A DNA stretch of 64,000 nucleotides from Acidobacteriota bacterium (GTDB taxonomy: Bacteria; Acidobacteriota; Vicinamibacteria; Vicinamibacterales; JAFNAJ01): the NCBI GenBank assembly GCA_023384575.1, contig JAHDVP010000001.1:231528-295527 (forward strand), written 5' to 3'. Below the pieces are notes generated by a model. The model was given only the letters and a program-made list of their open reading frames with translations, did not search any database and was not told where the DNA came from. Positions 2,390-5,117 of this stretch are shown here, in pieces (the first letter of the stretch is position 1; every line of letters begins with the position of its first letter). Made by a program: the position numbers and the translations under genes.

Positions 2390-3088
2390 TCAGGGGTGGT
2401 GGTGCGCGAGCAATGGATCGGGCACGCCGGCCTCGGCGAATCCTCGCGCGCGCAGCACGCAGCTGTCGCAGTGTCCGCACGGGCGCCCCCCGGCGAGCGG
2501 ATCGTAGCAGCTGTGCGTCAGCCCGTAGTCGAGGCCGAGGGCCACGCCGCACCGGATGATCTCGGCCTTCGACCAGTCGATGAGCGGCGTGTGCACGCGG
2601 AAGTCCGTACCGGTCACCCCAGCCCTCGTCGCGAGACGCGCCAGGTCCTCGAAGGCGGCGATGAACTCGGGCCGGCAGTCGGGATAGCCGGAGTAGTCGA
2701 GGGCATTGACGCCGATGAAGACGTCGTGCGCGTCGATGCTCTCGGCCCACGCCAGCGCGAGCGACAGGAAGATCGTGTTGCGCGCGGGCACGTACGTGAC
2801 GGGGATCTGGCCGGCGTCGATGGGGCGATCCTTGGGCACCGGCATGACCCCGGTCAGCGCCGAGCGGGCGATTTCGCCGAGGGGCAGGTCGAGTTCGACG
2901 TGCTTCGTGACGCCCAACGAGGCCGCGACGCGACGGGCCGCCTCGACCTCGCGCGCGTGCGTCTGGCCGTAGCGCACCGTCAGCGCGAACAGGTCGAACC
3001 CCCGGTCGGCCGCGATGGCCGCCGCCGTATAGGAGTCGAGCCCGCCGCTCAGCAAGACAATGGCCGAACGCCGCGAGATGGTCGACAT
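2390..3088 (-). CDS. queC: 7-cyano-7-deazaguanine synthase
   Basis: QueC (232 residues) converts 7-carboxy-7-deazaguanine to preQ0 with ATP and ammonia in queuosine biosynthesis. The N-terminal PP-loop SGGLDS (residues 14-19) binds ATP. The C-terminal zinc site is [17 protein letters not shown] (four cysteines). The motifs [16 protein letters not shown] and [17 protein letters not shown] are typical of the family. The start codon follows the queE stop by two bases, implying translational coupling. The C-terminus (LLAHHHP) is slightly histidine-rich. queD and queF are not in the window. Confidence 0.96.
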
Positions 3089-3090
3089 GC

Positions 3091-3732
3091 TCAGACGCCC
3101 CGCACCTCGGCACCCCAGATGTACTTGTGCAGCTGCACCTGGATCCGGACCGGGAGCTCGTCGGCCAGCACCCACTCGGCGAGCAGTTTCAGGTCGAGCC
3201 GCCCGTGCACGGGCGAGAAGAGCACGGCCGCGCACTTCCGGTCGAGCAGGTGCCGCCGCACGATCTCCCGAGCGAACTCGTAGTCGCCGCGATCCTGCAC
3301 GACGAACTTCACCTCGTCGTGCGGGGCGAGCAGATCGAGGTTGCGCCAGTGGTTGCGATGCGACTCGCCGCTTGCCGGGCACTTCACGTCGACCACCTTG
3401 ACGACCGCCGCGGGCACGCGCTCGATGCTGACGTGCCCGCCCGTCTCGAGCAGCACCGTCCGCCCGCCGGCGAGCAGGGCGTCCATCAGCGGGTACACGT
3501 CGGGCTGGAGCAGCGGCTCGCCGCCGGTGACCTCCACCAGCGGACACCCGTGCCGGCCGACCTCGTCGAGGACCTCGTCGAGGCCCATCTTCCGCCCTTC
3601 CGTGAACGAATACGGCGTGTCGCACCAGGTGCAGCGCAGGTCGCAGGCCGTAAGGCGAACGAAGACACAGGGGCGACCCGAATGGGTCGATTCTCCCTGG
3701 ATGGAGTAGAAAATCTCGTTGACCGTGAGCAT
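3091..3732 (-). CDS. queE: 7-carboxy-7-deazaguanine synthase (radical SAM)
   Basis: QueE (213 residues) is a small radical SAM enzyme that rearranges 6-carboxytetrahydropterin to 7-carboxy-7-deazaguanine, the step before QueC. The iron-sulfur site is C30-x3-C34-x2-C37 ([14 protein letters not shown]), followed by the SAM-binding VTGGEPLLQ. The N-terminus [12 protein letters not shown] is the family hallmark. It is the first gene of the minus-strand run queE-queC-alaX-GNAT. It is divergent from the selenoprotein candidate at 3802, with a 69-bp intergenic space that probably holds both promoters. Confidence 0.96.
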
Positions 3733-3801: not shown

Positions 3802-4149
3802 ATGCCCAAACCGACCTTCTACTGCAAACCGACGTGAACGACCTGCAAGAACGCCAGGAGTTACCTGGCTGAGCTCGGCATCGAGGTCGACGAGGTCGAC
3901 ATCAACCGGACGCCGCCGCCTCGCGACCTCCTCGAGCGTCATGTCGACGCCGGGCGCCTGAGAGACTTCCTGAGCGCGCGCAGTCCGGTGTTCAAGACGC
4001 GCCCGCTGCCGACGGGCAAGACCGAGGCCCTCGACCTGATGCTCGCGCAGCCGAACCTGATCAGGCGGCCGCTGCTCGTGGTGGGGAAGACGGCGATCTT
4101 CGGCTTCGATCGCGATCGGTACGAGGCGCTGAGGGGGCAGAGGCGCTGA
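3802..4149 (+). CDS. Probable selenoprotein, ArsC/Spx-like thiol reductase (in-frame TGA = Sec12)
   Basis: Reading from ATG 3802 gives MPKPTFYCKPT, then TGA at codon 12 (3835-3837), then TTCKNARSYLAELGIEV and 100 further residues to a TGA at 4147. The whole is 115 residues, normal for the ArsC/Spx/YffB family of glutaredoxin-fold reductases. The family's CxxC falls at TGA-T-T-C, so the TGA replaces the first redox cysteine and would give UxxC. Downstream family features are intact: QPNLIRRPLLVVGK and FGFDRDRYEAL. A perfect 6-bp hairpin with a 5-nt loop begins 15 nt after the TGA (separate entry). A plain nonsense mutation is the alternative, but the exact replacement of the catalytic cysteine and the intact downstream frame argue for selenocysteine. 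Its last codons lie in a GAGGCGCTGAG direct repeat. Whether it reduces arsenate is unknown. Confidence 0.8.
3853..3869 (+). promoter_or_regulatory. Candidate bacterial SECIS hairpin
   Basis: GCCAGG-AGTTA-CCTGGC forms a perfect 6-bp stem with a 5-nt loop inside the coding region. The loop starts 21 nt after the TGA at 3835-3837. Bacterial SECIS elements are known to have an apical loop about 16-37 nt after the UGA with a G among the first two loop bases; here the loop begins A-G. A longer-range pairing of CGACCT (3839-3844) with AGGTCG (3884-3889) could close a lower stem. It would recruit SelB to the UGA; no sel genes are in the window. Confidence 0.72.
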
Positions 4150-4166: not shown

Positions 4167-5117
4167 GTGCAGGGGGCGCAAAGACGCGCCGAGATCCGGA
4201 TTGGCACGTCCGGCTGGAGCTACCCCTCCGGCCGCGGCAGCTGGAACGGCGTGTTCTACCCGTCACCGCGGCCGGCCGGCTTCGACGAGCTCGTCTACTA
4301 CGCGGAGCGGTTCGACACGGTCGAGGTCAACTCGACGTTCTACCGGGTCCCGTCGCCGGCCACCACGAGGCGCTGGGCCGAACGAACGCCCCCCCGCTTC
4401 GAGTTCGCGGTGAAGCTGTTCCAGCAGTTCACGCATCCGCGCATGTTCGCGGAGCGCTCAGGCGGAGAGGCCTCAATCGGCCCGGCCGACGTCGACGCGT
4501 TCCGTCGGGCCATCGACCCGCTCGCCGTGGCCGGCAAGCTCGGCCCCCTCCTCGCGCAGTTTCCGCCGAGCTTCGTCCGCGACGAGGCGGCGGTGGCGTA
4601 CCTCGGGTGGCTGCTCGAGACCTTCGGCGACCACGCGCTGGCCGTCGAACTGCGTCACCGCTCGTGGAGCGACGCGGCCGACGACACCCGCGCGCTGCTC
4701 GACGCCGCCGGTGCCACCTGGGTGCAGATCGACGAGCCGAAGTTCCGTTCCTCGATCAGACAGGACTTCAGGGCCACGCCCGGAGCACTCTTCTACGCGC
4801 GCCTGCACGGGCGAAACGCCGGGGAGTGGTGGGATCACGAGCGGACCGAGGACCGCTACGACTACCTGTATTCGAGCGAGGAGCTCGAGCCGTTCGCCGA
4901 GGCCGTGGCCGACGCCGCGCGGGTGGCACGCAAGATCTACCTGCTGCTCAACAACCACTTCGAGGCCAAGGCCGTGGCCAACGCGGCCATGCTGAAGCAC
5001 CGGCTCGGCCAGCCGGTGCCCGGCGCCTACCCGGAAGCGTTCCTCTCGCGCTTCCCTGCCCTCGCGGGCACGGTCACGACTTCGGCGCGGAGGCCTGGCC
5101 CGGGGTCGTTGTTCTAA
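4167..5117 (+). CDS. DUF72 (YecE-like) domain protein
   Basis: A 316-residue DUF72 protein with a TIM-barrel-like fold and no settled biochemical role. It opens with EIRIGTSGWSYPSGRGSWNG and VEVNSTFYRVPSP, the family's conserved N-terminal blocks, and has FEFAVKLFQQFTHPR and LAVELRHRSW in the middle. The GTG at 4167 is the first in-frame start; there is no good ribosome site. It lies 17 bp after the selenoprotein candidate and may be co-transcribed with it. Its 3' end overlaps the convergent cyclophilin gene by 44 bp. Confidence 0.9.
   Translation: MQGAQRRAEIRIGTSGWSYPSGRGSWNGVFYPSPRPAGFDELVYYAERFDTVEVNSTFYRVPSPATTRRWAERTPPRFEFAVKLFQQFTHPRMFAERSGGEASIGPADVDAFRRAIDPLAVAGKLGPLLAQFPPSFVRDEAAVAYLGWLLETFGDHALAVELRHRSWSDAADDTRALLDAAGATWVQIDEPKFRSSIRQDFRATPGALFYARLHGRNAGEWWDHERTEDRYDYLYSSEELEPFAEAVADAARVARKIYLLLNNHFEAKAVANAAMLKHRLGQPVPGAYPEAFLSRFPALAGTVTTSARRPGPGSLF

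Follow-up and report, generated by a model that had tools for sequence, protein, structure and literature searches.

The gene at positions 3802 to 4149 (plus strand) of the window, that is, the whole stretch of 64,000 nucleotides analyzed here, very probably specifies a genuine selenoprotein, an ArsC/Spx-like product of the thioredoxin fold whose UGA codon 12 would be decoded by means of a hairpin. Comparison with homologous sequences indicates that selenocysteine (Sec) is almost certainly encoded at this in-frame TGA.

An in-frame TGA within an arsC-like gene

The frame at 3802-4149 comprises 115 residues, ends with a TGA stop at 4147-4149, and is interrupted only by the TGA at 3835-3837, its 12th codon. 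Its translation reads MPKPTFYCKPT-U-TTCKNARSYL... up to RRPLLVVGKTAIFGFDRDRYEALRGQRR, and the TGA, the U of U-T-T-C, stands in KPT-U-TTC where the family has its first catalytic cysteine. The window protein matched the ArsC family (PF03960) from residue 7 to residue 109, thus across the TGA, with 3.8e-12 and 46.8 bits against a gathering cut-off of 24; together with the homologues and the AlphaFold model described below, this supports the assignment of the gene and agrees with the first-pass annotation, which had placed the only interruption of the frame at the first redox cysteine. Since the sole in-frame start listed 3' of the TGA is a GTG at 3988, giving 53 amino acids, a standard gene caller would either overlook the gene altogether or, as had been anticipated, cut off its N-terminus.

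A homologue match was obtained in 58 of the 149 genomes of the same order. Within the order, codon 12 was TGA in 42 sequences including the window and TGC in one nested close relative, G110 (57% identity), and the distant homologues that were read carried TGC. The other 41 sequences of the TGA clade were 48 to 69% identical to the window protein. Because the family includes Cys forms with TGC and with TGT, the gene might have encoded an ordinary ArsC-like protein of the Cys type, with the TGA introduced in sequencing or assembly; the same codon is, however, TGA in 41 other genomes, which excludes an error, and we rejected this reading as having a negligible probability. In G110, which is nested in the Sec clade, Cys has naturally replaced Sec, and the DUF72 neighbor is kept.

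A scan of GTDB genomes gave 79 homologues with a readable position 12, namely, 30 with TGA, 30 with TGC, 19 with TGT, and none with another codon, a tally in which distant Sec forms are undercounted because one search pattern required Cys. A phylum-wide search added nine Sec forms at 34 to 49% identity, and the more distant members of the phylum likewise had only TGA, TGC, or TGT. Homologues thus carry nothing but Sec or Cys codons at this position, which is the pairing that the first-pass annotation had proposed to look for, and an in-frame UGA at the position of a redox cysteine with Cys homologues is what is expected of a bacterial selenoprotein. Scanning genome contigs with the window protein alone returned no match, while the alignment retrieved 226 relatives, the named close ones being Acidobacteria, including one Vicinamibacteraceae. 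In the protein alignment, both flanks of the TGA were conserved across the order, and the invariant positions of the clade included KP, U/C-TTC, R19, S58, R60, S61, P62, R89, and P90.

Conservation of the hairpin downstream of the TGA

The perfect hairpin GCCAGG-AGTTA-CCTGGC that had been noticed after the TGA maps to positions 3853 to 3869 (plus strand), with a core stem formed by 3854-3858 and 3864-3868 and a loop 21 nt past the end of the TGA. Taken on its own, the window sequence was only mildly unusual, an equal stem arising in 3.4% of synonymous codon shuffles, and its single-sequence fold gave a weak signal (z-score of -1.66), so that the case for a selenocysteine insertion element (SECIS) is carried by comparative tests. 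The aligned DNA of the clade was free of gaps 3' of the TGA, and a stem of at least 6 pairs was found in 36 of 41 clade sequences, against 3.2 expected from synonymous shuffles. Codon choice within the hairpin was nearly fixed: alanine was encoded by GCC in 42/42 sequences (62/200 elsewhere in the same genes), arginine by the rare AGA or AGG in 42/42 (33/359, or 9%, elsewhere), and leucine by CTG in 41/42. The inner stem pair was A-T in 28 and G-C in 14 of the 42 sequences, with no mismatch, and its state changed at least three times on the protein tree; the swaps were synonymous at the arginine codon and mostly so at the Phe/Tyr codon. Neither the covariation score nor the number of paired cells of the clade was reached in any of 500 shuffles. 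Variation of both partners is confined to the inner one of the five stem pairs, so that the evidence consists of this pair and the codon bias. Overall, these data indicate that the hairpin following the TGA is selected as RNA, as expected for a SECIS lying just past a UGA.

Stems were also longer in Sec than in Cys homologues (52 versus 56 sequences; Mann-Whitney P of 4e-14, uncorrected for kinship), Cys homologues having mostly short stems of the kind that arise by chance. G110, the nested Cys form, has CGG GCG at the corresponding codons and has lost the hairpin. Divergent Sec homologues mostly had different stems at nearly the same place, the majority closed by a GGTC loop, for example, AGCAAAA-GGTC-TTTTGCT and GCAAGGC-GGTC-GCCTTGC, and one distant Sec form (L162) had no good stem after its TGA. 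The GGTC loop, present in six divergent acidobacteriotal sequences (L153, L155, and L158 to L161), is that of the Escherichia coli fdhF SECIS, which was read as a control and likewise lies shortly past its UGA, whereas the loop in the window clade is mostly AGTTA or AGTTT and the stem sequence is unrelated to that of fdhF. The element recognized by SelB may thus have drifted between hairpin classes. An Rfam search for SECIS elements gave no match in our sequences, but the model RF00031 matched in 0 of 14 control genomes as well, so that this negative carries no weight.

The conservation of both protein and RNA also bears on whether the gene could be a decaying pseudogene or whether the TGA could be a true stop, separating a short leader peptide from a truncated protein. 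The GTG at 3988 would indeed allow a 53-amino-acid product, but this only downstream start removes the catalytic motif, both sides of the TGA are conserved across the order, and the codons of the hairpin are under selection. On the strength of the flanking conservation and the selected codons, we rejected decay and truncation as very improbable and retained the selenoprotein.

Selenocysteine machinery

The genome to which the window belongs (5.9 Mb in 112 contigs, estimated to be 100% complete) contained selA (529 bits), selB (314 bits, above the cut-off), a tRNA-Sec above the cut-off with the anticodon tca, and two selD matches above the cut-off. The selB match ends at model position 342 near the end of a contig, and a C-terminal piece lies on another contig. 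The better of the two selD matches has a TGA within its active-site motif, CAGUAGK, suggesting that the selenophosphate synthetase of this genome is a selenoprotein as well; this copy (contig C14, 89153-90079, minus strand; L068 in genome G000) has a strong hairpin after the TGA. The second selD-like match (contig C50, 30820-31734; L069) lies within an open frame of 773 amino acids, which is perhaps a fusion protein. The complete set expected in a selenoprotein-producing bacterium (selA, selB, selC [tRNA-Sec], and selD) is thus present, with selB in pieces at contig ends, in line with what the first-pass annotation had made its proposal depend on.

Among the genomes bearing the TGA form, only G044 and G133 lacked a true selA match, and both are fragmented assemblies of many contigs. 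Genome G110, which encodes the Cys form, has retained selA and tRNA-Sec despite the loss of the hairpin. Many genomes of the order have selA and lack the arsC-like gene, indicating that this gene is not the sole use of selenocysteine in the order.

Structure and predicted function

The AlphaFold model of the window protein was confident (pLDDT of 90.6), and its nearest folds were Spx, the top match, YffB, and other ArsC-related structures. Proteins of the Spx and YffB type (PDB 3ihq, 1rw1, and 3gkx) share the fold, the length, and the position of the first cysteine with the window protein but have Cys rather than Sec and are only 25 to 30% identical to it.

Cys12, Arg60, Arg94, and Arg107 are the residues that we take to define the glutaredoxin-linked arsenate reductase of the E. 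coli type (ArsC). Of these, the window protein has equivalents in the alignment only for Arg94 and the Cys12 position; it has none for Arg107 and a serine opposite Arg60, though an arginine stands two columns further on. A Sec-dependent arsenate reductase would fit the match to the ArsC family, the conserved Arg94, and the presence of E. coli-type ArsC among both the sequence and the fold neighbors. The incomplete set of arginines nevertheless speaks against it, as do the score of 30 bits against the cut-off of 106 for the NCBIfam arsC equivalog and a neighborhood made of DUF72 and queC/queE rather than ars genes, and we consider arsenate reduction improbable. A redox-sensing regulator that binds RNA polymerase in the manner of Spx also seems unlikely. 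Of the NCBIfam models, TIGR01617 (Spx/MgsR) matched the window protein best, and it also matched 20/20 clade members below 1e-3 (2.5e-26 at best), in keeping with the top fold match, but the window protein scored 64.7 bits against a curated cut-off of 75.05, and the fold is common to other ArsC-related proteins such as YffB.

Because Arg94 alone among the E. coli ArsC arginines clearly aligns, a general thiol/selenol oxidoreductase is likelier than an arsenate reductase. Among the functional readings of the selenoprotein, a UxxC thiol/selenol oxidoreductase is the likeliest and appears reasonably probable, a role read from the family to which the protein belongs. The first-pass annotation had spoken of a Sec-dependent arsenate/thiol reductase; the selenoprotein is thus supported, while the arsenate part is poorly supported.

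Gene neighborhood

Directly downstream of the arsC-like gene, at 4167-5117 on the plus strand, lies a gene encoding a DUF72 protein (PF01904, E value of 9.4e-60), its probable operon partner. On the other side, queE (3091-3732) and queC (2393-3088, identified from its translation and from homologues beside queE) lie on the minus strand, so that DUF72 and the divergent queE are placed as the first-pass annotation had described. This synteny is conserved: among 32 loci including that of the window, most had divergent queC and queE on one side and a codirectional DUF72 gene on the other, and in some the DUF72 gene overlapped the arsC-like gene. The Cys form G110 keeps the same queC-queE/arsC-DUF72 arrangement. 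No DUF72, queE, or queC gene adjoined any of the distant homologues examined, and conservation within the order together with absence beside distant homologues suggests an order-specific operon. The arsC-like and DUF72 genes are probably cotranscribed, and their adjacency and overlap suggest a functional link.

Discussion

The comparative evidence argues strongly for a mechanism in which SelB carrying Sec-tRNA(UCA) would be recruited by the hairpin 16 to 32 nt downstream of the UGA and would decode codon 12 as selenocysteine during translation, yielding what is predicted to be a single-domain, thioredoxin-fold, ArsC/Spx-like protein. By analogy with the family, the selenolate of Sec-12 would attack an oxidized substrate, a disulfide or similar, Cys-15 would resolve the resulting intermediate by forming a selenenylsulfide, which would in turn be reduced by a thiol system of the cell. 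The DUF72 protein, probably produced from the same transcript, may act in the same process.

ArsC-like selenoproteins have been described before. A survey of the Sargasso Sea reported arsenate reductase selenoproteins with a UxxS motif (PMC1088965), and ArsC-like selenoproteins were also found in a bacterial survey (PMC1794560). The Global Ocean Sampling (GOS) survey listed ArsC 1, with UxxS, and "Arsenate reductase 2" (cd03032), with UxxC and 42 selenoprotein sequences (PMC2398784), and recent lists include NF041106 (ArsC_rel_Se_1), an arsenate reductase-like UxxC selenoprotein (PMC13188914, PMC9312934). The window protein shares Sec at the catalytic cysteine of ArsC with the Sargasso Sea sequences but has UxxC where they have UxxS. 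It shares the ArsC family and UxxC with the GOS "Arsenate reductase 2," a group compared with our clade by description only and consisting, unlike the clade, mostly of marine metagenome sequences. As for NF041106, this too is a bacterial ArsC-like family with Sec in UxxC, but the window protein scored 26 bits against a curated cut-off of 85 and hence falls outside that subfamily. UxxC ArsC-like selenoproteins being already catalogued and the window protein staying below the NF041106 cut-off, the protein is of a known kind to which a clade is newly added. A search of a limited literature collection for selenoproteins of Vicinamibacter and Acidobacteriota returned no paper on this clade, which is possibly an unnamed subfamily of ArsC-like selenoproteins. 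The broader proposal of a distinct, so far unnamed acidobacteriotal UxxC ArsC-like subfamily functionally paired with the DUF72 protein of the same operon can be made only tentatively.

Taken together, these data give strong support to a clade of selenoproteins found in several families within a single acidobacterial order. Routine gene prediction would truncate or miss its members, and they lie beyond the reach of the selenoprotein model that NCBIfam provides for relatives of ArsC. Within the clade, G110 offers a clean natural experiment, in which Cys has taken the place of Sec and the hairpin has gone while selA and tRNA-Sec have been kept. Finally, the conserved arsC-DUF72 pairing provides a testable lead on DUF72, a family without known function, and a functional pairing of the two proteins, if true, would be the first link of DUF72 to selenium-dependent redox chemistry.
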